Assembly (NCBI GenBank): GCA_027603945.1
Contig: JADIIU010000073.1
Coordinates: 1-64,000, forward strand
Direction: 5' to 3'
From: Terramyces sp. JEL0728
Lineage: Eukaryota; Chytridiomycota; Chytridiomycetes; Rhizophydiales; Terramycetaceae
DNA length: 64,000 nt
Below are positions 1 to 59,544 of the stretch, piece after piece. A program made the translations under genes and the position numbers. Position 1 is the stretch's first letter. Each line of letters opens with the position of its first letter. The notes beneath the pieces are model-generated. The model was not told the origin of the DNA. It ran no database searches and saw only the letters and a list, made by a program, of their open reading frames with translations.

Positions 1-1730
1 TGGAGTCTGCTCGTGTTGGTTGTTGCCCTCATCAACAACCCATCTCAAGCCATCAACGCACTTTGGGTATTCTTATTGGTAGTAGCTTGGGGTATTTTAT
101 TGGCTTTCACTGCCCGCCCACTATTCGTTTATTTGATCAACAACTCTGAAGCAGAAAATGGTGCTACCCAGTTCAATGTGTTTGTGGTCTTTATGGTGAT
201 GTCGATTTCAGCATTCTTTACCCAAGCAGCTGGAGTTGACGCCATTTTTGGTGCTTTCTTGGTTGGTTTGATTACTCCGCACGACAAAGGGTTTGCAATT
301 GCAATGACCGAAAAGATTGAAGATTTGGTTCTGATTCTATTCCTCCCGCTCTATTTCGCATATTCTGGTCTCAACACCAAGCTTGGGAACTTTAAATGAT
401 GGACAAACTTGGGGAGTCATTTTATTGATTATTGTAACTGCTTGTGGGGGCAAGATTTTGGGATGTACGATGGCTTCTAGAGCGGCAGGAGTAAAGTGGA
501 GAGAATCGTGGACTATTGGGTTTTTGATGAACACCAAAGGGTAATTGGATTTAAACTAGACTAGTGGAAATCATTGTATTGAATCTTGGGATTACAAGCG
601 CAAGTAATCTCTCCAAAAGTGTTTGCAATGTTCTTGATCATGGCTTTGGTCACTACTTTTATGACTGTTCCAATCGTTTCCTACATCTATCCACAGAGTA
701 TGTACCTGAACAAACCTTCCAATGAAACTATCAAAGCAGATTCTACAGCAACATTGGACTGCCATTGGTGGACAAAATGCACATTATTATATGCCTTCCA
801 ACCATGAAAGTAGTTCCTGCTGTAATGAATTTAAGCCAGATCTTGTTTTCAAGTCCTAAAGCACTGGATGTTTATGCACTAAGATTGATTGAACTTGGTG
901 ACCGTATGTCAAAAGTTATGTTGGCTCATGAATCCTCCCACACATTGCAGTCAGATCCTGTCATCAACATTCTCCGCACCTTTGGACAACTCAACAACAA
1001 ATCCATCAAGACTCTAATGTCTGTGTCCCCACACTCAAATTTCTCTACAGATATTGTGGATGCTGCAGTTACCTTGGAATCCAATTTGATTATTTTCCCA
1101 ATTGAAGCCAGTTCAAACACGTTCCCAAAAGGTTGGGCTGCATCCATTGCCAAACAATTATGGCAAGAAACTCCATGTCCTTTGGCATTCTTTGTTGATC
1201 GCGGGTTCGGCGTATCTAACTTTGCCCAAACAGAATTTGATTCAATTGCAACACCAGGCGAAAACCAAAAAGTATTCTTCCCATTCTTTGGAACAGACGA
1301 TGATGTGGAGGCAGCAATCCTTCTCAACTACATGTCTCACGCAACTGCAATTCAAATTGTCATTTTGCAATTACACGATCCGGAACCAGAATCAGCAGGC
1401 GCATTAGCGTTATCCGCTCTAGGATCTTTCCCAAATGTCACCATCGAAAAGACTGAAAATAAATCGAGTATGGCTGCCGTTAGTCGTGCTGCCGATTTTG
1501 GAAAGAAGGATTTGATTATTATTGCGTATGACAAGTACGAAGCTCCTTCTGAAAAAGACGACACTATCAAGCAATATCTTGAGTCACAAAGCGCAGCTTC
1601 TTATATGATTGTAAACAAGCCGCACTTTTTGTCAACCAATTCTGCTACAAACAACACACAAAACAGCATTTCAAGCATTCTTCGGCGCAGAGCAAAGAAA
1701 GAAGAGAAACTACCGGAAACTATTGTTTAA
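1..1730 (+). CDS. CPA2-family cation/H+ exchanger, copy 1 (5' partial, two apparent frameshifts)
   Basis: This is the C-terminal part of a monovalent cation/H+ antiporter of the CPA2 (Kha1/KefC-like) family, expected to exchange K+ or Na+ for protons across an internal or plasma membrane. The first base already lies inside the transporter domain, so the 5' part is outside the window. Relative to copy 2 there is an extra G in a GG run near 387-390 and another near 590, each shifting the frame. A 19-nt intron lies at 541-559. A second, unresolved frame change falls between about 700 and 770. The cytoplasmic tail (765-1730) is intact, starts with a VDKMHIIICLPTMK-like segment and is clearly diverged from copy 2. 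Either this copy is decaying, or the two extra Gs are sequencing errors. The family call is firm; functionality is not. Confidence 0.75.
541..559 (+). other. 19-nt spliceosomal intron (example)
   Basis: GTAATTGGATTTAAACTAG. Removing it joins AAAGG to ACTAGTGG and restores NTKGLVEIIVLNLG, the expected CPA2 helix. The identical intron occurs in copy 2 at 3097-3115. It illustrates the intron class seen throughout this window: GTA donor, TAAAC-like branch site next to the acceptor, and an AG end. Confidence 0.85.
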
Positions 1731-1969
1731 GTACCACTTATATCTTTAATAAATATTTCACTCTTGTTTTGAAATTGGTATGTTTGCTCACGTTTTTGAA
1801 ACTATTGCGAGCTTGAGACAGGTTTCGTATTGAATACCGTGTTTAATCAAGTCTCTAATATCGAAGGCTCGGTAATCTAACCGGTATATGGTACTTGAAC
1901 AGTATAATGCATAATTTTTTAGAAACACGCGATAGTCGCCAGCACGGTGAATAAACTTTAAATAAATCA

Positions 1970-4282
1970 ATGGTACAGACTGTCGCTTCTGATTCGTTTC
2001 TAACCGGAATGAATCCACTATCCCAAAACATCTCACTTTTCCTCACCCAAATGGTGATAATCGTATGTACCGCGCGAATCATCAAAGTATTTCTGCAATA
2101 TCTCCATCAACCAGCAGTCATTTCAGAAGTCGTAGGGGGGATTATTCTTGGACCTTCAGCGCTATCCAGCATACCGTCGTTCAAAAATACGATATTCCCA
2201 GACTCTTCTTTATCGTCACTAAAATTAGTTGCCGATATTGGACTGATTTTATATTTGTTTATGATTGGAATGGAACTCGATCCAGTGAAGGTTGCAAAGG
2301 AATTCCGACAATCAGCAGCGATTTCTCTAGCTGGTATTATTCTTCCGTTTGGATTGGGGGTAGGTGTAGCAAAATTGGTATATGACTTGTATGGGGATCC
2401 ATCAGTTCCGTTTACTTCGTTTGTTGTATTCTGTGGTGTTGCCATGTCTATTACTGCCTTTCCTGTCCTCGCTCGTATTTTGACAGAAAGGAAATTGCTC
2501 GGAACTCCAGTTGGAAATGCTACCTTGGCTGCAGCAGCCAGTGATGATGCTATTGCCTGGAGTCTGCTCGTGTTGGTTGTTGCCCTCATCAACAACCCAT
2601 CTCAAGCCATCAACGCACTTTGGGTATTCTTATTGGTAGTAGCTTGGGGTATTTTATTGGCTTTCACTGCCCGTCCACTATTCGTTTATTTGATCAATAA
2701 CTCTGAAGCAGAGAACGGTGCTACCCAGTTCAATGTGTTTGTGGTCTTTATGGTAATGTCGATTTCAGCATTCTTTACCCAAGCAGCTGGAGTAGATGCT
2801 ATTTTTGGTGCTTTCTTGGTTGGTTTGATTACTCCGCACGACAAAGGGTTCGCAATTGCAATGACCGAAAAGATTGAAGATTTGGTTCTGATTCTATTCC
2901 TCCCGCTCTATTTCGCATATTCTGGGTTGAATACCAAGCTTGGAACTTTAAATGATGGACAAACTTGGGGAGTCATTTTATTGATTATTGTAACTGCCTG
3001 TGGGGGCAAGATTTTGGGATGTACCATGGCTTCTAGAGTGGCAGGAGTAAAGTGGAGAGAATCATGGACTATTGGATTTTTGATGAACACCAAAGGGTAA
3101 TTGGATTTAAACTAGACTAGTGGAAATCATTGTATTGAATCTTGGATTACAAGCGCAAGTAATTTCCCCAAAAGTATTTGCAATGTTTTTGGTAACTGCT
3201 TTGGTTACCACTTTTATGACAGTCCCAATCGTATCCTACATCTATCCACAGAGTATGTACCTGAACAAACCTTCCAATGAAACTATCAAAGCAGATTCTA
3301 CAGCAACATTGGACTGCCATTGGTGGACAAAATGCACATTATTATATGCCTTCCAACCATGAAAGTAGTTCCTGCTGTAATGAATTTAAGCCAGATCTTG
3401 TTTTCAAGTCCTAAAGCACTGGATGTTTATGCACTAAGATTGATTGAACTTGGTGACCGCTTGTCAAAAGTTATGTTGGCTCATGAATCCTCCCACACTT
3501 TGCAGTCAGATCCCGTCATCAACATTCTCCGCACCTTTGGACAACTGAACAACAAGTCCATTAAAACATTTTTGGCAGTTTCGCCACGTACTAACTTTCA
3601 TGCTGAAATAGTAGATGCTGCAGTTACCTTGGAATCCAATTTGATTATTTTCCCAATTGAAGCCAGTTCAAACACGTTCCCAAAAGGTTGGGCTGCAAAT
3701 ACAGCAGTACAGCTTTGGTTCCAGGTTCCATGTCCTTTGGCATTCTTTGTCGATCGCGGGTTTGGAGTGGCAAACTTTGCTAAAACGGAATGTGATTCAA
3801 TGACTACCCCAGGTGAAAACCAAAAAATATTCTTCCCATTCTTTGGTACAGACGATGACCTTGAAGCATCAGTTGTGCTCAATTACATGGCGCACGCACC
3901 TGCAGTAAGAATTACAGTGTTGCAATTATACGATCCGGAACCAGAATCAGCAGGCGCATTAGCATTGTGCGCTCTAGGATCTTTCCCAAATGTTACCATA
4001 GAAGAATCGGAAAATAAAACCAACGCTGTAGCAGTATCCCGTTTCGCAGAGTATGGAAAGAAGGATTTGATTATTATTGCGTATGAAAAGTACGATTCAC
4101 CATCAGAAAGAGACGAATCAATCAAGAAATACCTGGATCACCGCTGTTCTGCTTCCTATATGATTGTCAACAAACCACACTATTTTGCAGTGAATAACTC
4201 TACAAATAAGGAAAACAGTATTTCAAAAATGCTAAAGCGTAAAAATAGAACAGAAGAGAAAAATTTAGGGAACAATCCCTAA
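1970..4282 (+). CDS. CPA2-family cation/H+ exchanger, copy 2 (complete)
   Basis: Complete Kha1/KefC-type antiporter. The start at 1970 is the first ATG and gives a short N-terminus, followed by about 12 hydrophobic segments (HQPAVISEVVGGIILGPSAL, then LVADIGLILYLFMIGMELD, typical of CPA2) and a soluble C-terminal tail of about 320 residues. A 19-nt intron lies at 3097-3115. Between about 3240 and 3325 the reading frame must change again to reach VDKMHIIICLPTMK; a 38- or 47-nt intron with donor GTACCT would do it, but neither fits the 19-22 nt rule, so this junction is unresolved. It is a tandem duplicate of copy 1, 239 bp downstream. Long stretches are nearly identical, whereas the tail has diverged. 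Family call high, exact splice model moderate. Confidence 0.85.
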
Positions 4283-7398: not shown

Positions 7399-10132
7399 AT
7401 GGCAGAATCTCAGGGATATTTTCAATCACTTCAAACAGACAAACCTCAGGGCATTCTTTCCGCACAAATAGCCAGAGGACTTAGTAAATCAAACTAACAA
7501 AGGCGACAAGTTGTATGAGAAAAGAAAGCAGGCTGCATTGGAAATTGAAAAATTGGTGCGTGATGCAGTTCAGGCTAAAGATCATACCAGAATTACATTA
7601 TTATTACAGACGCTGGTACAAGATTTCACATATTCAATTGTGCCAAATTCAAGAAACGGCGGGCTGATTGCACTGGCAGGTATATTTCACTAATTCAGCT
7701 ACCGCAATTGCTCTTGGAGGGCTAGTACAGATACATTTGAAACAGATAGTTCCTCCAATTCTCACTTGTTTTGCAGATCATGATTCTAGAGTGCGCTATT
7801 ACGCATGCGAATCAATGTACAATGTTGGAAAAGTTGCTCGACATGCACTGTTGGGATGGTTCAACGAGATATTTGATGCACTTACAAAACTGTCGATCGA
7901 CCCAGAGTTATCAGTCAAGAATGGGGCTGAATTATTGGATAGATTGATCAAGGATATTGTCTGTGAAAAACCAGTCTATTATCATCCAGAATTTGAACAA
8001 GAGTACAAAAACCTGACTGAAAATGGTAATACTTTACAGATATCTGGTGGTGGAGATCATCCATTATCCGCCAGTCCTACCCCAAACATATTCCCCCCTG
8101 TTCCAGGATCAATTCCATTACAGCCAGGAATGACTCCGTTGACTTTTAATTTACCACGCTTTATCCCGCTACTTAAAGAAAGGATTAATGTTGTAAATGC
8201 TCCAGGAAGGCTATTCCTTGTACAGTGGATACTTGTGTTGAACAGTGTGCCAGATTTGGAGTTGGTGACATTTTTACCAGAATTCTTGGATGGATTATTT
8301 GTATACCTAAGTGATACAAACGTCGATGTACGAACTGCAACATTGAATGTGCTTGGAGAGTTTTTAAAAGAAATAAGTAGTATATCTTCAATTCAAAGGG
8401 AAAACGGGCCATTGAAGTTTGTTAGTCCCGAAAAGTCAAATCCAGCAAATCCATACGATACATCAGTCGAGTTAGCTAAAGTTTTAGAAGAAAAAAGGAC
8501 TGGACAGGTTGCCAATGATCCTTACATTCCAGGACAAGGAGTGATGCTCGATTTCGGCAAGATGACAGAAACCTTGGTTAAATACCTTCCCAGCAAAGGT
8601 AAATGTGGTTAATACAGACGAGGAAACCCAAGCGACTTCACTGCGATGGGTAAATTCTTTTATTGTATTGGCAAAGTCTGCCATGCTACCGTTTACATCT
8701 CAGTTGTTAGGAGCTATATTGCCGATCCTATCTCATCAAATAGATACAATCAGATCATTGGCTATTGACGCAAACACAAACTTGTTTACCCTTGTATTGG
8801 AGTGGTCGATGCACCACTCCCCGAGTAAAATCCAAGACGACCCATTTGACATTGTAAATACTGTAGGGACTTTGCTACAATTATTCCAAGATGAGCACGA
8901 AGACACCAGGGTTGGCTCTTTGGAATGGCTATTGATGCTGCACAAGAAATATCCAAAGAAAGTAATGAATGCCGATCAAACAATATTCCAAGGATTACTA
9001 AAAACGTTATCTGATTATTCTGAAGAAGTGGTCCGAAGGGATCTGCAACTGTTGGCTCAAATTTCTCATTCTTCTGATGGTAGTATTTAATTAACTCGAG
9101 ACGAATACTTTACTAAATTCATGATCAACCTGATGAATTTATTTACAATTGATAGACGATTATTAGAAACGCGAGGCAGCCTAATCGTTCGGCAACTCTG
9201 TTTGTCTCTAAATGCGGAACGGATGTATAGAAGCTTTGGTGAAATTTTAGCACAAGAAGAAGTATCTTTTGATTGAAACTAGGACCTGGAATTTGCAAGC
9301 ACGATGGTGCAGACATTAAACCTCATTTTAATTACCGCTCCCGAATTGGCAGAAATGCGCCAAACTTTGAAAAACATAGAAAGTAGAGAAGGCTCTGCGT
9401 TGTTTTCGGCGCTGTATAGATCCTGGTGCCATAACCCAATCGCCGTCTTTTCGCTGTGTTTATTGGCACAAGCATACGAACATGCATCCAATTTGATGAC
9501 CAGCTTTGGCGAATTGGAAATAACAGTTCAGTTTCTAATTCAAACCGATAAATTAGTGCAGTTGATAGAGTCGCCGGTGTTTACCCAGCTGAGGTTACAA
9601 CTGCTAGAGCCAGACCGCTACCCGTACTTGTACAAGTGTCTGTATGGAATCCTGATGCTATTACCGCAAAGTAGCGCTTTCAGCACTTTGCGCAATCGCT
9701 TAAACAGTGTAAATACGCTGGCAATGCTGTATGCTAGCCCACCAACCCCCATGCAAAGCCCACCGCCGCCGACCCAAAGTAGGAGGTATACCTTGTTAAT
9801 CGCAGTGTTTCCAAAAAGCTGCAAACTCCTGAACCGACAAACAACATCGTATTCAAATGGGGAGATTTCCTGCAGCACTTTAGGAATATACAAGCTAGAC
9901 ATGAAAGAGCAAGACGGAATTGTAAACTGTATCTAAAATAGTATCTCGAGCCCAAACACACCAAGAAGATGAAAAAGCGTTTGCCAAAAGAGGTAGATCT
10001 GGCTCAGTGCCTCCAGCTGCAACTTCCACTTTGCCATCCTTGAGTGTTGGATTGTCTAGATTTTCTAGAGTGAGACCGCCTACGAGTGCTTCTCCGTCTT
10101 CATATGATTTACGTGACAAGCCAAAAAAGTAA
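7399..10132 (+). CDS. VAC14: VAC14, PI(3,5)P2 kinase complex scaffold
   Basis: HEAT-repeat scaffold that assembles the Fab1/PIKfyve lipid kinase and Fig4 phosphatase at the vacuole/endosome. Eight exons give 864 residues. Introns: 7484-7502, 7680-7698, 8599-8617 (19 nt each), 9080-9100, 9262-9282 (21), 9786-9805, 9922-9941 (20). Diagnostic segments are [17 protein letters not shown] near the N-terminus, [31 protein letters not shown] and the conserved C-terminal region with [20 protein letters not shown] and [19 protein letters not shown]. The last intron contains an in-frame TAG, so retention would end the protein at about the usual C-terminus, whereas splicing adds a 60-residue Ser/Thr/Pro-rich tail. 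Each intron was placed by restoring family similarity, and the summed length is a multiple of three. Confidence 0.92.
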
Positions 10133-10421: not shown

Positions 10422-11904
10422 CTATCCTGCCTTTGAAAGAAACAAATTCTCAATACCAAAACGAGAAGTCGGCTGTTCGTTTAGAGTTGGAGACCAGGCT
10501 TGTTGCAAAATTTCAATTACTTGATCCCAGATTTTTTCCTTTGCATCTATAGCCCAAACAGTGTCTAAATGTTCATAGCCCTGCATTAAAAACTACTTAC
10601 TTCTAGAGTATAAATATCACAATGAGCTGGTAAATGGTCGCGCAGATAGTCAACATCCGATAGGTTGTCTGCCTTACCGCAAAATAACGAAATTGAAGTC
10701 GTGATGTGCTTGGTAGGGAATCGCACAGGAGGAGTTGTCGACGGTGTTTGAGTGAACGAGAGTTTGTGCAATTCACCGACATCTGTGTAAGCTGAAAATC
10801 TTCCATGCTCCATAATTTGAAACCAGTGCTATGTAAAAGAATAAATACCACAACTGACTGTACGCTTGTGGGCGAATAAAGGTTTTTGTACAATAATAGC
10901 TGCCGCTCCATCTCTCCCAAATTCTCCATTTTCCATCCAAGACAAAAACCTAAAATATTCTTTATGATCAGTCGTGTATGATCGCTGCGGCACCAAGGTA
11001 GTATTGAATTTGCAATTGTAAAAAAGCCGTTGTTCCCTAGCACATAGTATAGCCCTTGAGGTCCAAATAAACCGAGATAATTGTTCAGTACTGTGTGTTG
11101 TATCTCTGTCGTTAATTTAAGCTACCGTTTGGCTTCATTGCGGGAGCTAATCCAATTACGTGATTAATTTTGTGGTTGAGATCGTCATTCAAGGCGAGGG
11201 CGGCGATTGCTAGGTTATTTGCAACATACCTTGGGCCGATCCTTGGGAAAATCCTATATAAGACACTTTCTCCCTCTTTGTATATGATAGCACATAATCT
11301 ACAACAGCTGGTACATCAAAATTTGCAAGATGGTCAATTGAAAAATCCCAGAATTTCGCGAGATCTTGCTTGTCCTTTAAATTCAAGTGCTCGTGTTTAA
11401 AAGAATATTCCGTTCCTCTGGCATTACCCAACCATACATCAAACCCTGCATCGGCAAGTACAAAAGCTAAACTAGACTCTGGATTGGACGCAACAAACAT
11501 ATCACTTGAATTTGATAATCCGTGCCACACAATTACTGGGTAATTTGATGGTGTGGGATGAATCTGGTTTCTACTGTATGGTATACGCTGCAGGCCAATA
11601 TGGTATCCGTCTCTAGTGATTACATTATGCTCTTCACATGGATATCCCCAGTATTTGATTATGTTTGGTGCACCCTTGATTTTTAGTAGATCTGAGGTGT
11701 TCCTCAACTTTTCAACCCTAATTTTTAATGTTGATATTACATTCTCTGGGAAAGAAATCCCAAGCCCCTCCCACCTGATAATCCAGAGTGGAACTTGCAC
11801 AGACAACGTGAAAGGTGCAGATATCGTGCCGATTAGATCATAGATACTGCAGATTCGATGAAAAGCTGGATTGCCTGTTGGAATTATACAGTCCGACGCG
11901 CCAT
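10422..11904 (-). CDS. Acid lipase / steryl ester hydrolase (alpha/beta hydrolase)
   Basis: About 459 residues of the lysosomal acid lipase / yeast Tgl1-Yeh family, which hydrolyses steryl esters and triacylglycerols at membranes or lipid droplets. Visible: an N-terminal hydrophobic anchor, the AB-lipase region (VITRDGYHIGLQRIP), the oxyanion HGLSNSSD, GFDVWLGNARGTEYS, the nucleophile elbow GFSQGSAQ and the catalytic Asp/His region (FCGKADNLSDVDYL, then GYEHLDTVW). Introns of 20 nt: 11210-11229, 11106-11125, 10829-10848, 10581-10600. The start is less sure: a 7-base first exon at 11904 plus a 23-nt intron (11875-11897) keeps the frame open, and no other in-frame ATG exists upstream of the domain. 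Confidence 0.85.
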
Positions 11905-12042: not shown

Positions 12043-12876
12043 CTACAACTCAGTTTCAAGATCTGGGGCTTCAAATCCCTCTTCAGTCTACATCAAACAA
12101 TATTTACCTTGTACATTATGTTTTGGACATCTTTGAGGGCTGCATCCAAATTAGCGTCGATGCCCCCTTCGACACGGGATTGTATATAAACTTCAATCTC
12201 CCTCAATTTTCCAAAGTAGAATTCTCTTTCCTTTTCTACTTGATCGACAGTTATCTGATTATTCATCAAATACCTTAAGCTCGTTTACTTGGAGTGTAAG
12301 GTCATTTGCAACCTTTTGGTACTCATCAATTAGATCTCGATGAGTATTAGGACCGGCAGCAGCGGCAGCAGCAGTTTTTGGAGTTTTCAATAAGCGGACT
12401 GGCTTTGGTGGTTCATTAACAGAGTTGTTTGAAAGTGATTTCTGGTATGGTTTTGCAGGACTGGCAACCTTTTTCTTCAAACCTCCAGTAGTTTTTGGAT
12501 CGTAACTCCCGCCGGGATAATACTGGTCCCAGAATCTATGTAAATATCAAAAGTACTTTTTAATCCACTGAACAAACTCCAAATTGTCTTGAAATTTGCA
12601 TTTAATTAAGCGTTCCACTGGGATCGCGTTGTCAATTTTGTGTTTATCAAATACGGCTTGTAATATTTTAAAGTTTGCGACATACTCCCATTCATGTTTG
12701 GCGTTGAATTTTACTTTTGAAAGAGGGACCTTGTTGTTAATGAAAAATACGTCTCTAAAGACTGAATCCATAATCAAACAGTGGGCGGCTCCAGTTCCAA
12801 ACTGCTCCACCTTTGTGTAGTTATGCTGGGAAAGATCGTTGTACCAAGCGAGTAACTCTGTTCTAGATTCCGACAT
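12043..12876 (-). CDS. EB1/Bim1 microtubule plus-end-binding protein
   Basis: 257 residues. The N-terminal calponin-homology domain (residues 1-120: MSESRTELLAWYNDL, NFKILQAVF, FQDNLEFVQWIKKFWDQYY) binds microtubule plus ends. It is followed by a basic Ala/Pro/Ser-rich linker with an Ala run and the EB1-type coiled coil (residues about 175-235, ending YFGKLREIEVYIQ). The tail reads EEGFEAPDLETEL, so it lacks a clear terminal EEY/F motif. Introns: 12536-12556 (21 nt), 12255-12273 (19), 12088-12107 (20). The recovered junctions give family-perfect joins such as KKFWDQYYPGG and NELKITVDQVEKER. Confidence 0.93.
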
Positions 12877-14422: not shown

Positions 14423-14615
14423 TTGCGATATTGCGTAACGAGTGTATTTAAGGCAAGCAAGTGTTTGGCCGGAAAAAGAATTTCCGACAAAAGACACCAA
14501 AGCGGATTTCTTAAAAAACAGGGGTTTATTTAAATCAGCGACTGCACTTGGTCTATTTACAACTCTGTAGAGACTTTACCAGGATCTCCAGATAAAGGCG
14601 GGAAAGAGCCTTTGA

Positions 14616-17600
14616 TTAAAATAATTTACCCTCCATGCCTGAATGTCCAGCAGAAAGATTAGAGCCCCTATTATTCTTCAATCCGACTTCAAGCGCCTTT
14701 TCCTTTTGCTTGATTATTTGAATATCGCGTCTTAGATGATTGATTTCAGATATCAAGACAACGTTTTCTTGCATGATTCGAACATTATCCATCTTGTGCA
14801 TAACTTGGTCCTTACTCTGCTTCTTGCGCAATGAAGTGACTGTACGTTCAAGGTACTCTCTTTGACGAGCATATTCCTGTTGAGGATCAGTATCGTTAAT
14901 TGTTTCTTCTTTAATGGAAGCTTCAATGCAGTACTTGTGGTACAACTTTTTCAAAGCAGACTTTAGTAGTTTTGGTTCTTGAATATACTGAATGCAGTCT
15001 TGTAAGTCTACTTTGAATCGCTGACGTTAATTTAAAAAGTACTCTGATTAGAGAAACTCCATTTTGAACTGCGATTCTTTCGTTTTGCACTTCCTTTTCG
15101 GAAGCACGCAGCTTTAATTTCAGATCGGCAATAGCAAGTTCCAATTCACTTGTAGCGCGATGGTAGTTTTCCAACTCAATATCCATATCTTTAATTTGCT
15201 GGGTCATTCCTTTGATATCCCTTTCTCTTGGCTCAATTTGCTTCTTTAATTCTTTGATTTTGTAATCCAAAACGAATTTGAATTTTTCCAATTCCTGGTT
15301 CTTTTTCTTCAAGTCGTAAATTCGTTTTTCCTTGTCTTGGATCGTTTCATCTCTTTCGTGAATCTAATTTAAACCAGTATTACTTCTTTTTTTAAACCAG
15401 CGATATCTTTTTCAAGGGACTTGATTACTGAGTGTAGTTTCTTTTCTTCATTGTACATTTTAGAGATTTCTCCTTTGTGTGTATCAATTTCGCCTTGGAG
15501 CGTATTGAATTTTTTTCTCATGATTCCATTTTCTCCTTTCAATCTCAGCACAATTTCTCTTTCGTCTTTCAATTTCTTTTCATAGCGGTGCCTTAATTCA
15601 ATAATTTCAGCGTCGGCATCTTGTTCAGTTTCTTTGGAAGTCTCCTCGTATTCCAGCAAATGCCTCTTGATTTCTTCTTGCAACTATATTAAATTAATAT
15701 ACTTGATCCATCTCGTTTTGCTTTTCCTGCAATCTTTGTTCAAAATGCTTGTTTAATTCTTCCAAGGCGGTATTTTTGGATTGCTGCATTTCGCGCATTT
15801 GATGTTCCCATTGGTCTTGCAGTTCAGCAGTTTTAATTTGCAATTCTTGATACTTGTCGTATTCTGCCATCAACTTTACATTTTGGCTGTTTTCCATATC
15901 AAGCAAATCCTTGGAATGTCGCTCTTTTTCCTCTGCCATTTCCTCTTCATGCCTCAATTCCTCCTTTTCCTTGTCGGTTCGCAAAACAGTCGAGGTTATT
16001 TTCAAAGTCTCGATTTCTTGCATGAATTTCTCTGTCACTTGCTTGATCTTTTCACTAAAATTCATATCTTTTAGTCTGAGCTGATACTCATTTTCCATTT
16101 TCAGCTCTTCAACTCTAGTTTTTAGTTCAGACATCATTGAGTTTTTCTCTTCCAAGTCTGATTTAGTAACAAGAATCTATATTTAGTTTGTGTGTACTTC
16201 ATCAGCGTGTATAATTTCTCGTTCTCTTTTCATGGAACGACCTTCTTTGTCGTAGATTTTGAAAATGTAGAAACTGCCGTCTTCCGAAACCGAGAATAGA
16301 TATTGATCATCGTAGCTGATAGATAACCTTGAAACAGGCGAGGAGTGCGCTTGGTGTTCTTGGAACGAACCTGCGTCATTTTGCGTAAACGGATACTTCA
16401 TTGATCGAATTGCGCCATTGGCAGTACCAACAAACATCATCTTTCCAGAATGTGACAACAAAACTTGAGTGAGCACCGTTTCCGATTCCAATTCTCTTAC
16501 AATTTGTCCATCGGCAATTTCTTTGAGTGTCTTGTCATTACCAACAGCATAGATAATTTTAGCGTCTGAAGTCATACAGCAGCAAGAGTAACTGCATGAT
16601 TTTAAAATACTTTCACTTTCTCTTTTTATACCTTGCCCTTGATGCCCGCTCATGTCTTTGAGCGACCATTCGTAAATTGCACCGTCAGTACCTGCAGTAA
16701 TGATTTTTGAATCGTCGAATGTCCAGTAAATCGAGCGTACTTTGCCATTATGTCCCTTTAGGTTGCCTAGATTTTCAAAATTCCATGTCGAGTATATTTG
16801 CACAGAGTTTCCAGATACAGCCGCAAAGTACTGCCCGCCATTAGAAAACCGACACTATATTAATAAATATCACTTCTTTGCAGCCTCTGATTGTAAATTC
16901 TCTAAATGGTCTGATATCATCAATGAGCAAATTCATGATTCGCAGCTTATCATTGAATCCAACAAGGATGTAAAGCCCACTAGGGTGTATAGCAACAGAA
17001 AAAGATTCTTCGGAGAAATACTTTACCAATTCGGATGTATTTTCAGTGTAGTTCCACACACGTACAGATCGATCAGTAGAACAAGTAACAACCAATGGTT
17101 TTCTGATGCAGGTATCCATGCCAGTAACCTGTCCATGATGAAACGGCTGAGAGAATATTTCCATTTTGCTTTCTTCGCCTTTAACGTCGGCACTGGATAG
17201 CGGACAGTAGTATATTTGCGAGTTTGTTGTTGAGCAAACAAAGTAATCTTCGGCTGGGTTTATAGCTATTTTAGCTATCGGCTGTTGTTCATCTGGTAAA
17301 CTAAATTCTCTAGCTTTTCTATATGCATCTTTGTTTACTATTTGCTGCTGTTGTTGTAGCAATGCCGCATTTTCTTCTTTATCGTACAGGGATACTCTAC
17401 CACTGTGACAGCCAATCAAGATACCTTTTGTGCTGTTTATCATTATGTTGATTGCAGATGGTAATTGACTGATGGTGTGAGTTAGTTCAAATTTCAATTC
17501 TCCATTCATTTCAAAGATCATTAGTTTGCCATCTTCAGTCCCACAGCCAATTCGTTCATCAGGCAACCAACAATGAGTCAATACATTTCGCTGTTCAATT

Positions 17601-18267
17601 TTGGGAGCTGCTACTAATTTCAATGCGTTTTCAGCGTATCTAAATATTTTAAATATTCCATTTCCTATAACTGACATTAGAGTGTTATCAGTAGGATTCA
17701 TCAGGCATTGGCAAACTGTAGTTCCAAGTAGCGATTCTTTTTGTTCTTTTGGAGTAGCGACGATTGCTGCAGCGTTCTTTTCCGCATTAACTGTTTTTGT
17801 AGAAGCGAGTATCTTGCTCTTTTCCCAAGACCAGAAATGCATTAGCCAATCCGGACCGGCAGTTTGAGTGACAATGAATTTTGAATCCGAAGAGAATGAC
17901 ATTGATATTACTTCCTATATTAGAGAAAAGTACTTTTGCATCCATGTCAGGGAAATTCATAGTCTTTCTTTTCCTCATTGTGCTTAATTCATGAAACACG
18001 ATGATTGGTTTCTTTCCTTGTTCAGCAATAGCCAGCCATTTTTTGTTTAATGACAATGCGATGCTAGTAATAGATTCTGACTTTTCAGAAAGATGGATAA
18101 ACCTTTGTAATTTGCTTTCGTGATTGTAGAGAATAATGTTTGATCCAGATGGATACATTACCGTGTGTTCATCCACAAAGGATAGGTTTCCTGTTGTCTC
18201 TGTTCGTAGACCGAATGCATGTCTTTTTAAGTTGGTTTTACCTGTATTCTAAACCTGCGATTGACAT
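14616..18267 (-). CDS. CFAP57: CFAP57, cilia- and flagella-associated WD40/coiled-coil protein
   Basis: 1170 residues, close to the usual length of the family. CFAP57 (WDR65) is an axonemal protein linked to the nexin-dynein regulatory region and inner-arm dyneins. The N-terminal half carries WD40 repeats (for example [24 protein letters not shown] blades) and the C-terminal half is a long coiled coil beginning near [11 protein letters not shown]. The start [17 protein letters not shown] matches the family. Introns: 18223-18241, 17915-17933, 16855-16873 (19 nt each), 16177-16197 (21), 15684-15702 (19), 15364-15383 (20), 15021-15042 (22). All junctions restore conserved sequence, such as [17 protein letters not shown]. 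Its presence implies a flagellate life stage. Confidence 0.93.
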
Positions 18268-19133: not shown

Positions 19134-19715
19134 CTATGCCCAACTGTGGAAAAGAGTTTCCAGAGAAATACAAAACAACAGGGGACTGGTACCAATATCT
19201 TGTTTACTGATTGTTTGGATTGAATACCAAATCAGTATTCCAATGTAAATGAATCCTCTAGACAAGCACAGCAAATGGTTCTTTGTGTTTTTCATTCTGA
19301 TACTATTTAAAATGTAATAATAAGCAATCAGAATGAATAGAGCAAAATCTCTACATTCGGAAACCAATGGCTCTGGATATACTTGCGCCTATTGTGAGTA
19401 TAATTGTACCTAGGTTAGTTGTACTAATACCTTGATTAGTTGTAATTATACCTGGGATACAGATACCTTTAGAAAACACAAGTCTAATACTACTTTACCA
19501 ATACTGATTATATAAAAAGAATATTTAGTTGATATTAAATCCAATGGAATAGTACTAGTAAACGCAAACTGAACATTTAAATAGTCCGACAAGAATAAAT
19601 TGATGATTTGTAATCCTGCTGCTAATTTGACTAGATTCCGTTTGGTCAGCGATTGTCCCAGGATCAACAAACTAACATAATTAAATACAAAAAACATTGT
19701 AAAAATAATATTCAT
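19134..19715 (-). CDS. Small multi-pass membrane protein with composite intron
   Basis: 167 or 172 residues, depending on whether the first 15 bases after the exon 1 end (19452-19466) are spliced out. The start ATG gives MNIIFTMFFVFNYVSLL; about four to five transmembrane segments follow, two in exon 1 and two or three in exon 2 (FALFILIAYYYILNSI, GFIYIGILIWYSIQ). Exons are separated by 63 or 78 bases, both multiples of three, containing consecutive intron-like units (see the repeat entry). No family is recognised, but the size and topology are similar to the protein at 21163-21594, so they may be distant paralogues. It shares a 67-bp divergent promoter with the Rmd1 gene. Confidence 0.6.
19389..19466 (-). 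repeat. Tandem array of intron-like cassettes
   Basis: Read on the minus strand the interval divides exactly into GT...AG units with nothing between them: 19452-19466 (15 nt), 19431-19451, 19410-19430 and 19389-19409 (21 nt each). The second and third units agree at 17 of 21 positions and share the block TACAACTAA, which looks like the branch site. Units three and four each contain an in-frame stop, so at least 63 nt must be removed to express exon 2. All other introns in the window are 19-22 nt, so this looks like one intron duplicated in tandem. Confidence 0.7.
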
Positions 19716-19782: not shown

Positions 19783-20910
19783 ATGGATTCCTCCGTCTTA
19801 GTGTCCTCGATTCCCCATCGTAGTATTCTCATACTTTTTATGCAAAACCGAAATCATAATCAAGAACGACTCCCACAGAGAACAACAAAAACTACACAAA
19901 AATTGGTTTTATTGCCAGGAGAGGATTTATACCAACCAGATGAAGCTCAGACAGAAGCTGAAAAGCTAAACAAGCAAGACAGATCAAATCTACCAAGAGT
20001 CACTTCCTACTGTCTGGCAGAATCATTCAAACTAGAAGAAATATCAAAATATATCACTCATTCACACGGTGTGGCTACAAAACAGTACGACGAATGCTTG
20101 TACTTTTACTATGAAAACCAAGTCAAAGAACGAATGTTTGGTCTAACTCAATCGTACTGTAAACCAGAAGTACTAGACAGAGGAGAAGTATTTATATTCG
20201 ATTACGGAGTAATGGTACTCTGGAATTTCACCGAAACGGAAGAATACAGCTTCCTTCAACATATAAAATCATTTGCAAAGAATTTACAAAAAGTAGAAAT
20301 TGAAGATTTTCATTACCAATATGACTTTAACTGCACTCAACCGAGGATATTTAATGATATGATTACACTGAAAAGCAGCTCGCTATTGATTAAGCTCACT
20401 ATTTCTCATGGATTATCACAATCAGTAAAGTTATCGTTTTTTGAAAATATAATGGAAGAAACTATTGAAAATGCTGGTAATTATTTATTTACTAGTTCCA
20501 CTACCTAAAATGATGGCTGTTTATGGAACCGTGAAAATGAACAGATCGAAAATAATGAAAATTATTGGAAATTTATATACACTAAAGATGAATGTAAACC
20601 TGATATCAAACGTTCTAGGTGCTTTTTATTAACAAAAGATACACCTGAAATGTTTTGGTCTGAACCTGGATTGGAAGGGCTGTACAGTGCGATACGAGTG
20701 TACTTGGAAATATCACAACGGGCACATTTATTAAATAGTAGAGCTGATGTGCTAACTGATTTATTATCTATGCTATCCGACCACTTAAATTCTGATGAAA
20801 TGACTTTTATTACTTGGATTATTATTATTCTTATTTTGATTGCTGTTGTTATTGCTATTGCTGAAGTGTTTGTAAAAATCATTCGTTTGAATGCTGGTTT
20901 TGAAGATTAA
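19783..20910 (+). CDS. Rmd1/DUF155 (YagE) family protein
   Basis: 362 residues. The family includes yeast Rmd1 and Rmd8 and mitochondrial RMND1; members are membrane-anchored with a conserved core and a C-terminal transmembrane helix. Visible: SNLPRVTSYCLAESF, the YDECLYFYYE block, FIFDYGVMVLWNFTETEE and the tail TPEMFWSEPGLEGLY followed by the transmembrane stretch WIIIILILIAVVIAIAEVFV. Introns: 20477-20495 (19 nt) and 20619-20638 (20 nt), restoring NAVPLPKMMAVYGTVKMNR and NVLDTPEMFW. The start at 19783 is the first ATG. The exact organelle cannot be read from the sequence. Confidence 0.88.
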
Positions 20911-39180: not shown

Positions 39181-39613
39181 TTAACTTTTAAAATACATTT
39201 TCAACCTCGCTTGTTGCAGCATGTACTTTTTACGCTGCAATAACTGCTCAGCTCTCATTTCTGCATTATCTGTCCACTCTGCTTTTGGCGCTTCAACCAT
39301 TTCGTCCGTCAAATATTTAGAAATATCTGCTTTTTTTGGCTGAACTTTGGGTTGCTGAGTCTGAGAAGCAGCAGGTGTTTGAATTATTGGCTACATTAAG
39401 CAAACTTACCAGTCGTCCGTTTAATATATTTTCTATCGTTTGGTTTGTGCTTCCAGTGGACTGCAAATCGTTTATGATTGATTGTCGGGAAACATTGGGG
39501 AATAAGGATTGTATTTGGTCTATTTGTTCTGTTGTTATTTGCGGTTTGAAGAACACTCTTAGCAGTACAAATAAAATTATTAGCGCAATTACAAGCGGAA
39601 TGAGATTCGACAT
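39181..39613 (-). CDS. CUE-domain ER membrane protein (Cue1-like)
   Basis: 137 residues with a 19-nt intron at 39391-39409. An N-terminal transmembrane anchor (LIPLVIALIILFVLLRVFF) precedes a CUE domain (QIDQIQSLFPNVSRQSIIND, ending TIENILNGRL), which binds ubiquitin, then a charged C-terminal helix (AEMRAEQLLQRKKYMLQQAR) resembling the E2-binding region of Cue1, the ERAD recruiter of Ubc7. The Cue1 assignment is by architecture. Confidence 0.75.
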
Positions 39614-39783: not shown

Positions 39784-40428
39784 TTATCCTCCCAATCTGT
39801 GCGGCAACTTTCCAGTCTTTTTAAAGTTCCTTTGTTTCTTCAACCATACCTACAATTAAATCAAATTACTCTGTAATCTTTGACTGATTGAATTCGTTCT
39901 CCAAAGTAGTCCAAATATCCAACATTATCGCCCGCGCCAACACTTCCCAAATCAGTTGGTCTGTATTTCTTTAAGCGGTTCAAGAATTGTTTCTCCATTG
40001 CGTCAAATTCCTTCAAGGTTTGAGATGAACGTAATACTCTCCATAATGGTGTTGCAATAAGGTTCCCTCCAACGAAAGATAAAGCGCCGATTATAAACAT
40101 TTGGATTGCATACGCAAATAAGGGATCAATACCCCAGATCATTTCTGTTGGGTCGAATTTTGCAATGAACAAAAAGTAAAATGATGACGCATTCAACCCC
40201 AAGAAACCTTTTGTTACTTGGATAATTACCAGTGACGACTCCCGTCCCTAATTCATATCTTTTGCGAGATTTGCGAAGGGTAAAGAAGGTTTTCCAGTCC
40301 ATTTGATTCTTGTTTTGTCCCGACGCAAATGAACGAGTGGAATATATAGGTTTGAGTGTAATTGGAGCGCATGTTAATCTGAATATTGACGGTCTGGGCT
40401 TTAGCAGTGGCGAGAATATCCTATTCAT
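39784..40428 (-). CDS. PAM17: PAM17, presequence translocase motor subunit
   Basis: 200 residues. PAM17 organises the TIM23-associated import motor in the mitochondrial inner membrane; the family is largely fungal. Visible: an Arg/Ser-rich presequence, MDWKTFFTLRKSRKRYELGTG, two membrane segments (FYFLFIAKFDPTEMIWGIDP, YAIQMFIIGALSFVGGNLIA) and the tail YFGERIQSVKDYRVWLKKQR. Introns: 40208-40229 (22 nt) and 39850-39869 (20 nt). The chosen ATG is the one that directly precedes the presequence. Confidence 0.92.
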
Positions 40429-43976: not shown

Positions 43977-45241
43977 TCAATTGTGGAAAACTTTATTTGC
44001 AAGATAAACAAGAGGGTAGCGATTTTCTTCGCTATTAAATGGCTTTCGCAGTACAATGGCTGCATGCGCATTGAATGCCTTGTCGTTATGCACATCTACT
44101 TTAATCCATTCCAGCTGGTTGAGGTTATGAATCATTTCTTCGCGGACGGTTCTTTGTTTTATATCCACTTCATTGTCCGCAATTTCGTCCCGTGCGGTTT
44201 CTTCGTCTCTTACTGATTCATCCAGCTCCTCCCTTGCTGCATCACTTTGTACAATTATTTCGGCTTTTTCTGTCGTGATTAGGACAACATTCTCCTCTGT
44301 TGGATTGGCTTGGTCGATGCTTTCGACGGACGGTTGATTTACATATTCACTTGACGTTCCTTGATTAATTTCTTCTCTTGAAGCTTTCACCCAGGTGTTT
44401 TCAATCGTGAGCGAGTGCTGCCTTATACGAGCTCTTGTGGCATTAAATCCCAACCCGAGGGTGGCAACTGTAAGCCAAAGTGGTACTAGTATCGGTACTG
44501 CCACCATTTTCAATGCAGTTGGTGCGATATCGCTCGTTGTCCATGGTACAGGCTGTTTTATTTTAGATTCATCAGGAGCGACTATTTGTGGATAGTCATC
44601 ATCAATGATTTTCGCTTCATATCGATTGTAAGGATTAGTGCCAGTAATAGATGCTGTACAATATCTATGTTAATCAAGGGCTACCTGACTGATCGATCCC
44701 CAAGTATATTGGCAAAACATGCGCGTCGTTTGAATAGCGCTAGCCCTTTGAAGAAATCGTATTCAGGGTCAGCCATAACAGCTAATAATGGTTTTCCATC
44801 AATGTACATGTCTCTTACATTGAACTGATAGCCTACTCGTACCAGGGCATTGGTTTGGATGGAATTGAAAATATCGTTGAAAACACTTTGTTTCCTACTT
44901 GTCCCTAAATTTGGAGTCGCAAGGGTGACAAAATTCATTGGAGTGACATTGCTAAAGAATCCAGCATTATATAGTTTTCCAATAACATATCTCAATATCA
45001 GTCCACCCAACGAGTATCCAATAAACGAAATCTGGTCAATTGGATTCGTTTCTATAAAAGTGTGAATATCCTTGACTACTCTGTCGCCGCAAATGTCTAT
45101 CCCATCGTAAGTGAGGTTTCCTTGATTTGTTTCAATGTTGAGAAACACAAGGTCGGCATGCTTTTCTTTTAAATGAGGGATAATTGTTTCTACATGCGTA
45201 GTATTTCCCCATAGGCCATGCTGCAAAACTACTAAATGCAT
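43977..45241 (-). CDS. DUF676-type serine esterase/lipase (Rog1/Lpl1-like)
   Basis: 414 residues with a 20-nt intron at 44665-44684. Alpha/beta-hydrolase: the N-terminus MHLVVLQHGLWGN gives the oxyanion loop, the nucleophile elbow is GYSLGGL and a putative catalytic His lies near NAHAAI toward the C-terminus. A hydrophobic helix (VPILVPLWLTVATLGLGF) sits in exon 2. The family includes yeast Rog1 and Lpl1, lipases or phospholipases of lipid droplets and membranes. An acidic, Glu-rich stretch precedes the C-terminus. Substrate unknown. Confidence 0.82.
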
Positions 45242-47707: not shown

Positions 47708-51577
<3,870 letters not shown>

Positions 51578-53460: not shown

Positions 53461-55576
53461 ATGAGTTTCTTTTCATCATTGACAGAAAAGGTCGGCCATG
53501 TATTGCATGGATCTAAAGGTACAGACAACTAATGCAGAAAAACTGGACGAACTAAGTTTCAGAGTACAAAACACTCTTGGGATTGGGGAAGAAGGGAAAA
53601 AGGACAAGCTCCACCAACAAATATCCAGCAACAATCCTCACGGCTCTTTCGCTCCGCAGCGAACCCAAGGAAACGTTAAATGGTACGTTGATGGTAAAGA
53701 TTACTTGTACTCAATTTCCGAAGCACTGCTTTCGGCTAAATCAGAAATCTGTATCGAAGGTACTCTTTATTTCATGTAGATTGGTGGTTATCTCCCGAAG
53801 TTTATTTGCGTCGTCCGCCAGCTGAAAATGAAGATTTCAGGCTGGACAGAATCTTGCAGCGTAAAGCAAACGAAGGTGTGAAGATTTATGTTGTTGTTTA
53901 TGAAGAAGTTCCTCAAGCATTGACTCTCAACTCGGAGCACACCAAAAAGTCCCTGGAAGCCTTGCATCCTACAAATATCATTGTTCAAAGACACCCTGAT
54001 CATGCACATGTACTCGAATCTACTGAATTCTGGGCTCACCATGAAAAGATTTGTATTATCGATCGTCGTTTAGCGTTTATTGGTGGTCTTGATTTGTGCT
54101 ATGGTAGATGGGATACCTCAAACCACGATGTCACTGATGCTCTTCCGCTTCCTTACTTTATTGGACAAGACTACTCTAATCCACGTATCAAGGACTTTGA
54201 AGATGTTCAAGAATATTCAAGGACTCTGATCGATAGAAATGAACTAACTCGCATGCCTTGGCATGACATTTCTATTGGAATGGTAAGCAAAGTTAATATT
54301 AGACTGGTGAACCAGTTGCTGATGTCGTTGCGCATTTCACTGAAAGATGGAACTTTATCAGAGAAGTAAAGTATCAGCATGAAGAAAATCATCATAATTT
54401 GCCTTTGCCTGAATTTGAATTGGGCAACTTTCCCGAATACAAAATGCACTGCCAAGTACTTCGCAGCAGCAGCGAATGGAGCCATGGTATTCCCACAGAA
54501 AGATCCATCCAAAATGCGTACATTGAACAAATCAGCAACTCTGAGCATTTCATTTACATTGAAAATCAATTCTTTATTACTTGCAATACAGATGATCCAG
54601 ATTACAAGATCAAGAACTTGATTGGTAAAGCTCTAGTCGAGCGTATCATTAGGGCTCACAATGAAAACACTCCGTTCCAAGTTATTGTTTCTATGCCATT
54701 GATCCCAGCCTTCCCAGCTGAGCTGTCCACAAAGGAGGCTGAAAGTGCACGACTGATTATGGCTTGGCAATACGATAGTATCTCCAGAGGCGGAAAGAGT
54801 ATCTATGATCTTTTGCGTCAAGCCAATATTGATCCTAGACAATACATCAACTTTTATTCTCTCCGTACTCGTGGTAGAATTCAATCTTGTACTGATGCAC
54901 TACGCTCACACGTTAGTGAGTTGTTGTACATTCATACCAAGCTTATGATTGTTGATGATCGCTCCGTTATTATTGGAAGTGCCAACCTCAACGACCGCTC
55001 TCAATGTGGCAGCAGAGACAGTGAAATTGCAATGTTGATTCAAGACAGCACAATGATCAACTCTACAATGAATGGCCAGCACGTAATCATTGCTAATACT
55101 AGTATTCTGTATCCAAATTCGCAAGTACTTTAAGAAGACACATCTTCCAAGAACATTTGGGGTTGATCAAACATGAAAAGAATACCCGCAACGTGGTAAA
55201 GAACATGCAATTGCCGCACTTTGAAAATGAGTATCAATTTGGTGACCATGGTGATTTAGCTGTAGTTGATCCGTTGTCAGCACAATTCAAACAAAAGTGG
55301 ACCGAAACTGCAAAAACAAACACACAAATATACAGAAAACTCTTCCACTCTGTCCCTGACGATACACTTACTACCTGGGATGAGTACAATGCCTTCTTTG
55401 ACAAGACACCAGAAAACTATGGCCATGTCCATTCCAGTGTTGATTTAGCTACTGTCGAAAAGGAAGTTGTAGGTATCCATGGGCATTTGGTTGAATTCCC
55501 TATTGATTTCTTGAATAGGGTTGATTTAATGAAGGAAAGCCTTTCTTCTAAATTGGCAATGGATTTGTTTACTTAA
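53461..55576 (+). CDS. Phospholipase D
   Basis: 678 residues, five exons. Hydrolyses phosphatidylcholine to phosphatidic acid. Both HKD-type motifs are complete: HHEKICIIDRRLAFIGG and HTKLMIVDDRSVIIGSANLNDRS. IENQFFI and the family C-terminal block ASTLRRHIFQEHLG are also present. No PX or PH domain is visible, so this is a short form compared with Spo14/PLD1. Introns: 53519-53537 (19 nt), 53760-53779, 54283-54302 and 55083-55102 (20 nt each). The first exon (MSFFSSLTEKVGHVLHGSK) was chosen because splicing it gives a continuous frame with the domain; the alternative ATG at 53498 lies in the wrong frame. Confidence 0.93.
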
Positions 55577-57534: not shown

Positions 57535-57560
57535 ATAAATTATAAAATCATTCTGAATGT

Positions 57561-59544
57561 TTATTCCCAAATGGTAGTATCCAACTTTGGACTGATTGCT
57601 TCCATGCTTCTAACAGATAACAACGCTGCTTTCATGCCTGCTCTGGTGCTTTCCACAAGATCCTTACCGTCATTCAACCCGCATATAATTGTACCTACCA
57701 TTGAATCACCAGCACCAGTGACACTAACAACGTCAACTGATTCTTGGGGAATAAAAGTCGATTTGCCAGACGAATAAACTAAAACGCCTTTCTTGCCAAG
57801 CTTTAAAACTATATTGTCAAACTGAGATAAAAGTATTTCAGCCAACTGTTCTGGTTCATTATCGGGCTTGATATTTGAAAAAGCTGCAGGATTGATGCAC
57901 TGGGCCATTTCACGGGCTTCGTATAAATCAGGAGTAATGATATCGGCATGCAAGGTAATTATGTTTAGCGATTTGACTACACTAGTTGGCTCAAACAGCA
58001 CCTGGATTCCATTCTCTTTAGCAAATTGTGTGATTTTGTATAGTGTAGGTTGCGTTAAGTTTCCATCAATTGCAATCACTTTTGGGTTTGCGTTTTTAAT
58101 TTGGGTTTGAATAGTTTCATTTAATTCTATTTCGCTATGAATACGCATATCTGCAGCTGCAGAGACTAGTTCTCCCTTCTTATCCAAAATTGCATTGTAA
58201 ATAGCTGAAGGTGTATCCAGCACACTTATAGCAATTGTATCCTAGATTAGAAAATAGCATACTGCGCCAATTTTTGACAAGGATTCAACGATTAGAGCTC
58301 CTGATGCGTCGTTGCCAACGGCACTTATGAAAAGCGGATTCCCGCCTACTCTGCAACATGCTTCAGCCAAATTACGACCAACCCCTCCACTTGATTCGGT
58401 TCTAACACCGGGAGTTGAAGTATAAATCATCTTTTCCTTTAGCTCTTCCGTTTTAAAAGTGATATCAAGCACTGATCCACCAAAAATAACAGGTCTAGAT
58501 TTTGCTTTTGCAGTTGAATGAGCAAAAGCCTCTGGGTTGGTTCTTTTCGCCATCTCAAACGCTATTTGGCTCCCAATAACCGCATTATTTTTTATCAAGG
58601 CAATATCTACATTAACAGTTGGTTACTAGCTTCCAAAGACTTGCCATCTGTAATTTTAGAGACCTTCTCCAGCAAGAATGGAGTTACATCTTTACCGATA
58701 ACGCCTTTTTCATTTGCTTCGTTGACAGCACTTTCAATCCCCCTATTTAATTCACTCTCATCGACATAATTTCCAGGAATAGGAACAGCGATAACGATAC
58801 CTAAATTAAAACGATAAATACCACTATTGAGACCCAATTCTTTGTTTGCAAGAATCATATCCGCACATTCTCCTGCAGTTTCCAAATTTGCTTGGCATTT
58901 ATATCCAGATCTAGGCAAATAAAATGCAGGGAAATCTCTTGTAGGTCCAAAAGCGACTGTACTCACCCCTTGAGTTTCCAGATACTCAAGTGTTTTTGGA
59001 ATATCGAGAATTGATTTTACACCTGCACACACGACTGCCATTGAAGTCTTTCCCAATTCAGTTAAATCTGCAGATATATCTAGTGATGCTTCAGCTCCCC
59101 TGTGTACGCCTGGTTAATTCGTAAAGTACCTCCGATCCCGCCAGTTACAAAAACATCTATTCCAGCTTTGTGTGCTGCAATCATTGTTGCAGAAACTGTT
59201 GTAGCGCCTAGCAATCCTTTTGATGTTACCAGAGCCATATCTCGTCTGGAAGTTTTAATTGCATCCAGTCCAGTTTTCGCCAACAACTCCAAATCCGCTC
59301 TGTCCATTCCAATCTTTATCTTTCCATGAATTAAAGCAATGGTAGCTGGTACGCAGCCTTGGGATTCGACAATCTCTTCAATTTCTAACGCTGTTTTCAA
59401 GTTGAACGGATATGGCATTCCATGTGTAATGATGGTGGACTCTAGAGCTACTACTGGTTTTTTTGTCCGCAGAGCATGCTTAACTTTATCAGATAATTGA
59501 TATATTGAAGAAAGTTTGGAAAACAGCACTGAAGCTGATTTCAT
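57561..59544 (-). CDS. Bifunctional pseudouridine-5'-phosphate glycosidase / pseudouridine kinase
   Basis: 640 residues, four exons. N-terminal PsuG/IndA-type glycosidase (KPVVALESTIITHGMPYPFN, GGIGGVHRGAEAS, KTSMAVVCAGVKSILDIPKT) splits pseudouridine 5'-phosphate to uracil and ribose 5-phosphate. The C-terminal PfkB/ribokinase-like domain (PVIFGGSVLDITFK, VTGAGDSMVGTIICGL) corresponds to PsuK, phosphorylating pseudouridine. The order glycosidase-kinase and the fusion match the known bifunctional fission-yeast protein. Introns: 59110-59129 (20 nt), 58607-58626 (20), 58242-58262 (21). Salvages RNA-derived pseudouridine. Confidence 0.92.

Follow-up and report, generated by a model that had tools for sequence, protein, structure and literature searches.

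The question raised by this stretch of DNA, 64 kb of contig C73 (hereafter the window) in a genome of 15,016,339 bases in 231 contigs, is what the segments of 19 to 22 nucleotides (nt) are that repeatedly interrupt the reading frames of its conserved genes. With a probability that we put at roughly 0.9, these segments would be ordinary U2-type (major) spliceosomal introns reduced to what appears to be the physical minimum. That they behave as spliceosomal introns is supported by their GT..AG ends, by a branch motif able to pair in sequence with the U2 small nuclear RNA (snRNA) of this genome, by the proteins restored upon their removal and by the presence of the same size class in a genome sample.

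The host can be placed by two of its proteins. The spliced CFAP57 protein of the window (without its first ~30 residues) shares 93% identity with Boothiomyces sp. JEL0866 over the entire query, 79% with Globomyces (82% of the query covered), 70% with Kappamyces and 66% with Batrachochytrium dendrobatidis, and U2AF65, encoded elsewhere in the genome, shares 93% identity with Boothiomyces macroporosus across 93% of the query. Judged by these proteins, the host is a chytrid (Chytridiomycota) near Boothiomyces, which belongs to the order Rhizophydiales, and is distinct in CFAP57 and U2AF65 from both annotated Boothiomyces.

A size class of introns in and beyond the window

The first-pass annotation of the window had listed 55 introns of 19 to 22 nt (16, 24, 13 and 2 of the successive lengths). 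Independent gene models confirm the observation and give 57 GT..AG introns (15, 23, 15, 3 and 1 of 19, 20, 21, 22 and 23 nt, respectively), distributed over 18 gene models and the first copy of a CPA2 antiporter gene; all but three of these come from a gene finder, those at 541-559, 18223-18241 and 25330-25350 having been entered manually. The first-pass annotation also noted a TAAY motif resembling a branch site in many of its introns; in 37 of the 57 introns counted here, YTRAY lies 4 to 7 nt before the intron end, and in the other 20 it does not.

The gene finder derives a coding score from codon pairs, was trained on long open frames and takes GT..AG as intron ends. Its first round was blind to splice motifs and used a flat length prior of 12 to 100 nt on a sample made up of the window and 20 stretches of 10 kb (264 kb); three retraining rounds taught it splice motifs and no length. 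Depending on the run, the ceiling on intron length was 100 nt or 300 nt, and the 300-nt run covered the 264-kb sample together with six further loci of 3 to 4 kb. The motif-blind round returned 134 introns, 59 of them of 19 to 22 nt and none of 18 nt, and YTRAY was found at -5/-6 in 39 of these 59 short calls versus 812 of 30,309 AGs at large (binomial p = 8e-47); the motif was also found there in 13 of the 62 motif-blind calls of at least 30 nt. After the three retraining rounds, 154 of 214 introns measured 19 to 22 nt (49, 68, 29 and 8 of the successive lengths) and two measured 23 nt. With the ceiling raised to 300 nt, 356 of 368 calls were of 18 to 23 nt and 12 were longer. This survey of intron lengths, of the kind proposed in the first-pass annotation, put 349 of 368 calls at 19 to 22 nt, and so did not show the lengths mostly above 30 nt that would have spoken against the claim. 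In the 264 kb, the finder with learned signals placed 326 introns of 18 to 23 nt, a density of 1.63 per kb of coding sequence, which, for a representative sample, would correspond to roughly 18,500 such introns in the whole genome.

The GT..AG ends claimed at the outset were compared with all 256 pairs of end dinucleotides in the window, among which GT..AG gave the most calls of 18 to 22 nt (20, the runner-up giving 14). In a signal-free excision test of frame-restoring cuts of 10 to 70 nt, run with a weak codon model, GT..AG had the highest rate at 18 to 23 nt (67/2157). A version in which the intron ends could be any dinucleotides located the frame breaks and not their edges, and was set aside. 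Of the 67 introns that measure 21 nt, 60 contain an in-frame stop; since the finder sees stopless introns of 3n length poorly, no inference is drawn from this count.

Protein homology bears on the junctions directly. For each junction, the best 30 homologs were considered, and those aligned without a gap were counted among the homologs spanning it. The eight junctions of CFAP57 are gap-free in 18/19, 19/22, 30/30, 29/30, 30/30, 27/28, 27/27 and 1/3 spanning homologs, i.e. seven are well supported and the last is unsupported; for U2AF65, three of the four junctions were examined and are gap-free in 29/30, 30/30 and 27/29. Taken together, 10 of 11 junctions align without a gap to most homologs. 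In the acyl-CoA synthetase gene of the window, the intron 25330-25350 (21 nt, stopless) was missed by the finder and is demanded by homology, and the best PDB alignment of the protein runs unbroken over GGENIYP.

Two further protein families were examined outside the window models. Among the CCT chaperonins, whose gaps were worked by hand, 14 of 19 gaps measure 19 to 22 nt, the others measuring 26, 34 (overlapping pieces), 55, 67 and 114 nt. For protein kinases, 22 pairs of neighbouring pieces of one domain were picked by eye from a genome-wide match list: the excess between the pieces is 19, 20 (six times), 22, 23 and 23 nt in 10 of the 22 pairs, and all ten pairs with differing open frames have an excess of 19 to 23 nt. 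As a separate observation, pairs of near-identical kinase match scores occur at two places on one contig (C18, C3, C26 and C42) and suggest recent segmental duplications.

Splice signals, spliceosome components and a proposed mode of recognition

In the 264 kb, YTRAY lies 4 to 7 nt before the end of 242 of the 326 introns. Among these 242, the offset from the donor G to the branch is 13 (122 introns), 14 (92), 15 (25) or 16 nt (3), and that from the branch to the end is 4 (14), 5 (124), 6 (95) or 7 nt (9); when a motif was fitted independently to 158 introns collected earlier, the result was a YTAAY branch motif with offsets that agree. The donor tends towards AAG/GTAATT (the slash marking the exon boundary), the base at +5 of the 326 short introns being T in 156, A in 70, G in 52 and C in 48, and the acceptor is TAG in 195, CAG in 84, AAG in 44 and GAG in 3. 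The branch A is thus found mostly 5 to 6 nt before the last G, which bears out the earlier reading of a branch site placed nearly on the acceptor. This short distance is the less unusual one, because anchored short branch-to-acceptor distances are reported, in the excerpts of the source used here, for Yarrowia, Trichomonas and Giardia (PMC2483917); the donor-to-branch distance, mostly 13 to 14 nt, is the stranger half of the geometry. Human spliceosomes are said, in a source likewise used in excerpt, to require ~50 nt from donor to branch (PMC6692369).

Inspection of the U2, SF1 and U2AF genes, which had also been suggested, found all three components present. The U2 snRNA is full-length (140 bits, model positions 1-192 of 192 matched) and keeps its GUAGUA box, to which the branch motif of the introns is complementary as a sequence match. 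SF1 is recognised by SF1-HH above the cut-off. U2AF65 matches U2AF_lg with a best piece of 251.7 bits and a second piece of 27.9, under the whole-protein cut-off of 310.3, and is alignable nearly throughout with fungal and animal homologs; its own gene has introns of 20, 20, 19 and 19 nt. The public U2AF65 model of Boothiomyces macroporosus (P0121) shows an apparent fusion to a ribosomal-protein-like N-terminus and is without 11 residues that are found in U2AF65 of this genome and, similar in form, in Globomyces.

The following mode of recognition can be proposed from these signals. U2 snRNA would pair with the YTAAY branch site (complementarity only), the branch A lying mostly 13 or 14 nt past the donor G, with the last G following 5 or 6 nt later, and the lengths of 19 to 22 nt would arise as sums of these two nearly fixed steps, a statistical relation that the motif inside the finder helps to produce. 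Since U1 and U2 would overlap sterically on so short an RNA, recognition is probably sequential: the donor, held mainly by the exon side and GTA(A), would be recognised briefly and passed early to U6 while U2/SF3b occupies the branch; the next AG would then be used, the interval from branch to acceptor being too short to accommodate a polypyrimidine tract; and a donor-to-branch loop of 13 to 14 nt might be the smallest that the active site allows. The loss of G at +5 fits a weakened U1 contact. Intron size would have shrunk while the signals stayed.

Counter-evidence, longer introns and alternative explanations

Several points weigh against the interpretation of these segments as minimal U2-type introns. 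Splicing itself is deduced from the DNA, and sequential recognition is a hypothesis. YTRAY is missing at offsets 4 to 7 in 84 of the 326 introns, a freer fit placed the best motif match at donor offsets 8 to 11 in 11 of 158 introns, and the offset statistics are partly shaped by the motif inside the finder, except in the motif-blind first round. In the 256-pair test of the window, at least 12 other end pairs, mostly AT-rich, beat GT..AG on total coding score; AA..TA and similar pairs outscore it in total probably because they are more frequent, and it is therefore only the size-class count that favours GT..AG in this test. The excess is 36 to 201 nt in 12 of the 22 kinase pairs, in which both pieces have the same open-frame length and were read as one frame; a stop lies inside a piece in 7 of these 12, and introns in or between the pieces are therefore possible. 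Finally, searches of this assembly by covariance model and by pattern recovered neither U1 nor U6: for U1, the covariance model gave 0 matches and three pattern matches were not recognisable as U1; for U6, three patterns were without match, and the two matches obtained, both sub-threshold, lie within near-identical sequence that looks protein-coding by eye. The missing matches are compatible with a gap in the assembly and with divergence.

A minority of the introns is longer. The alignment is gap-free at the junction of a 50-nt intron in the gene of the complex I 51-kDa subunit; introns of 46 and 48 nt, in what we take to be a KH protein gene and an Argonaute-like gene, respectively, look right from family sequence; two candidate introns (L010, L013), which measure 49 and 59 nt, fall where sequence conservation is poor. 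On visual inspection, the 55-nt CCT gap is made up of a 22-nt intron, a 24-nt intron and some additional residues, and the gaps of 67 and 114 nt are longer introns, whose removal restores CCT-like sequence as judged against reference sequences that we assume for this family. Five calls of 155 to 298 nt were judged likely spurious. Since this minority exists, the lengths, first described as uniform, can fairly be called so within the window and need qualifying genome-wide, where a few percent are longer. G stands at +5 in all seven longer introns that were kept (46 to 114 nt, at loci L030, L031, L015, L013, L010 and L001, including two CCT introns and the two in poorly conserved regions, L010 and L013) versus 52 of the 326 short ones (p = 4e-6). 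Left out of this count are a 64-nt triple in the topoisomerase I gene, a 26-nt call, the five calls of 155 to 298 nt, the 24-nt CCT intron (L032) and the CPA2 case described below; counting all 12 non-short calls and the two CCT introns, G stands at +5 in 9 of 14 versus 52 of 326 (p = 1e-4).

The topoisomerase I triple (L020, 3842-3905, plus strand) consists of GT..AG units that follow each other directly, with zero-length exons between them; they measure 22, 21 and 21 nt, the last one read by eye, and excision of the full 64 nt leaves the protein gap-free at the junction. The window has a comparable array on its minus strand, three 21-nt units at 19389-19451, likewise abutting. When 294 kb were searched for two abutting units with a branch motif, these two places were recovered, whereas five Markov shuffles yielded none.

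A tentative extension of the minimal-intron reading, which we consider possible and rather doubtful, is that one nucleus harbours two modes of donor recognition, compact and ordinary, that abutting arrays are removed serially and that U1 and U6 may be altered. Compact introns of 19 to 22 nt would be recognised through GTA(A) and pairing on the exon side, with a preference for U at +5 and a ruler of 13 to 14 plus 5 to 6 nt, and could stand in arrays with zero-length exons, three of them in topoisomerase I, to be excised one by one; the rarer introns of 46 to 114 nt would require G at +5. Altered U1 and U6 would explain the failure to find either canonical form.

It is unlikely that the short introns are only the visible part of the introns of this genome, the finder favouring short ones and a large class of normal introns going unseen. 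Homology does reveal longer introns (114 and 67 nt in CCT and 50 nt in complex I, in addition to those of 46 and 48 nt that look right), 5 of the 19 CCT gaps fall outside 19 to 22 nt, the 12 larger kinase pairs include the 7 with a stop, and the ceilings of the finder were only 100 or 300 nt; yet the other 14 CCT gaps and every kinase pair with differing frames fall in or next to the short class, at 19 to 22 and 19 to 23 nt, respectively, and the calls stay almost entirely within 18 to 23 nt even under the 300-nt ceiling.

It is very improbable that the segments are not introns and represent short frame-breaking inserts caused by assembly errors or gene decay, or stretches that the ribosome skips or that are removed from the DNA. 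Besides the indirect evidence for splicing, this explanation can appeal to the first CPA2 copy, whose two single-base frame differences indicate that some frame breaks are of another kind. However, the inserts are of fixed size, start with GT, end with AG and mostly contain a U2-matching branch motif, conserved genes throughout the sampled genome contain them at the density given above, and annotated Boothiomyces proteins are, in protein sequence, 93% identical to the spliced proteins. Least credible is a non-spliceosomal excision by endonuclease and ligase: the ~50-nt human donor-to-branch minimum (PMC6692369) makes spliceosomal removal look hard, but the consensus at donor, branch and acceptor is that of the spliceosome, as is the match to U2, and Stentor (15-16 nt; PMC9505925) and chlorarachniophyte nucleomorphs (18-23 nt; PMC6461891) have, according to excerpts of these sources, introns of such sizes together with spliceosomal RNAs.

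Gene models in the window and comparison with known systems

The gene models are collected in Table 1. Doubtful calls are the 23-nt intron 11718-11740, near a model start, and the three units at 19389-19451. Models w9 and w10 look like one gene, in which a further 21-nt GT..AG segment, read by eye at ~9080-9100, is outside the 57. An Rfam scan of the window gave no match at the gathering score, and a tRNA scan of the window with the bacterial code found none. The neighbouring CPA2 copies (1-1730 and 1970-4282) are 95-100% identical in most 100-base blocks over about the first 1000 compared bases, then 68-84%. Both copies had been left with an unsettled frame in the first-pass annotation, and neither resolves on our own comparison: near 3257 (numbering of the second copy), the frame of the second copy demands removal of a GT..AG segment, either 35, 38 or 47 nt long or at least 107 nt long, in which no branch motif is apparent, and the first copy has the same stretch and two single-base insertions relative to the second that shift the frame.

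Table 1. Gene models of the window and their short introns; family names given as presumed are the authors' assumption.
Feature	Position	Strand	Introns	Basis or remark
CPA2 antiporter copy 1, broken gene	541..559	+	541-559 (19 nt)	identical to copy-2 intron; restores KG/LVEII as read
CPA2 antiporter copy 2	1970..4282	+	3097-3115 (19 nt)	Pfam Na_H_Exchanger
Models w9+w10, presumed VAC14-like	7399..10132	+	7484-7502, 7680-7698, 8599-8617, 9262-9282, 9786-9805, 9922-9941	finder
Gene, presumed lipase-like	10422..11742	-	10581-10600, 10829-10848, 11106-11125, 11210-11229, 11718-11740 (doubtful)	finder
EB1-like gene	12043..12876	-	12088-12107, 12255-12273, 12536-12556	Pfam EB1 on spliced protein
CFAP57	14557..18267	-	14610-14629, 15021-15042, 15364-15383, 15684-15702, 16177-16197, 16855-16873, 17915-17933, 18223-18241	homolog alignment; 14610-14629 without homolog support
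Three abutting 21-nt intron-like units in one gene model	19389..19451	-		finder
Gene	19840..20910	+	20477-20495, 20619-20638	finder
Gene, presumed PUF6-like	21802..23828	-	22493-22513, 23209-23228, 23460-23480	finder
Acyl-CoA synthetase	23951..25670	+	24230-24248, 25156-25176, 25330-25350	Pfam AMP-binding on spliced protein
Gene w23	28897..32289	+	29238-29257, 31877-31896, 32122-32141	finder
Gene, presumed VPS13-like	32446..39057	+	32846-32864, 34491-34510, 36884-36903, 38716-38734	finder
Gene w26	39156..39613	-	39175-39196, 39391-39409	finder
Gene w27	39784..40428	-	39850-39869, 40208-40229	finder
Gene w30	43977..45241	-	44665-44684	finder
Gene, presumed ABC transporter	47708..51577	-	47882-47902, 49154-49174, 50625-50645	finder
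Gene, presumed phospholipase D	53498..55576	+	53760-53779, 54283-54302, 55083-55102	finder
Gene, presumed PfkB / pseudouridine-phosphate glycosidase fusion	57561..59544	-	58242-58262, 58607-58626, 58801-58821, 59110-59129	finder

Introns of comparable size are described in excerpts of a few published sources. The nucleomorph of Bigelowiella natans has 865 introns of 18-21 nt, and chlorarachniophyte nucleomorph introns are said to be without obvious donor-side or branch motifs, U1, U2 and U5 being shortened (PMC6461891); Stentor coeruleus has 8,806 introns of 15-16 nt, the size of all those annotated there, whose branch A is located at nt 10-11 and followed by a 5-nt tail (PMC9505925); a 2025 paper on a Trichomonas intron of 23 nt names the 15-nt introns of Stentor and the 18-nt introns of Bigelowiella as its only counterparts in size (PMC12316389); and excerpts of an analysis of 644 fungal genomes describe intron lengths without such a class (PMC8476143). 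The chytrid resembles the chlorarachniophyte nucleomorph in the size class, the GT donor and the many introns per genome, and differs from it in that donor and branch motifs are clear, U2 is full length and the introns lie in a 15-Mb fungal genome and not in a relic nucleus. Like those of Stentor, its introns are AT-rich, end about 5 nt after the branch A and reside in the nucleus of a free-living cell; unlike in Stentor, where no strong consensus surrounds the branch A, it lies mostly at nt 14-15 within YTAAY, and the introns measure 19 to 22 nt, some 46 to 114 nt. With Yarrowia, Trichomonas and Giardia, whose introns are longer as a rule, the chytrid shares a fixed short branch-to-AG distance with no polypyrimidine tract between, whereas those genomes are intron-poor and this one has 1.63 introns per kb of coding sequence. 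Among the literature matches listed, no report of ultra-short introns in a chytrid was found; given that Boothiomyces proteins match the spliced forms, publicly available annotation may already contain such introns implicitly.

Splice aligners and gene callers with a larger minimum intron would misread such genomes. A fungus that has an estimated ~18,500 introns with mostly 13 to 14 nt from donor to branch, and that retains U2AF65 and recognisable splice signals, shows the reduction in size apart from the loss of signals. The minimum intron size, usually attributed to small nuclear ribonucleoproteins obstructing each other, becomes testable in a fungus; Boothiomyces strains are held in culture collections, and such introns would give a native system for spliceosome assembly on very little RNA.

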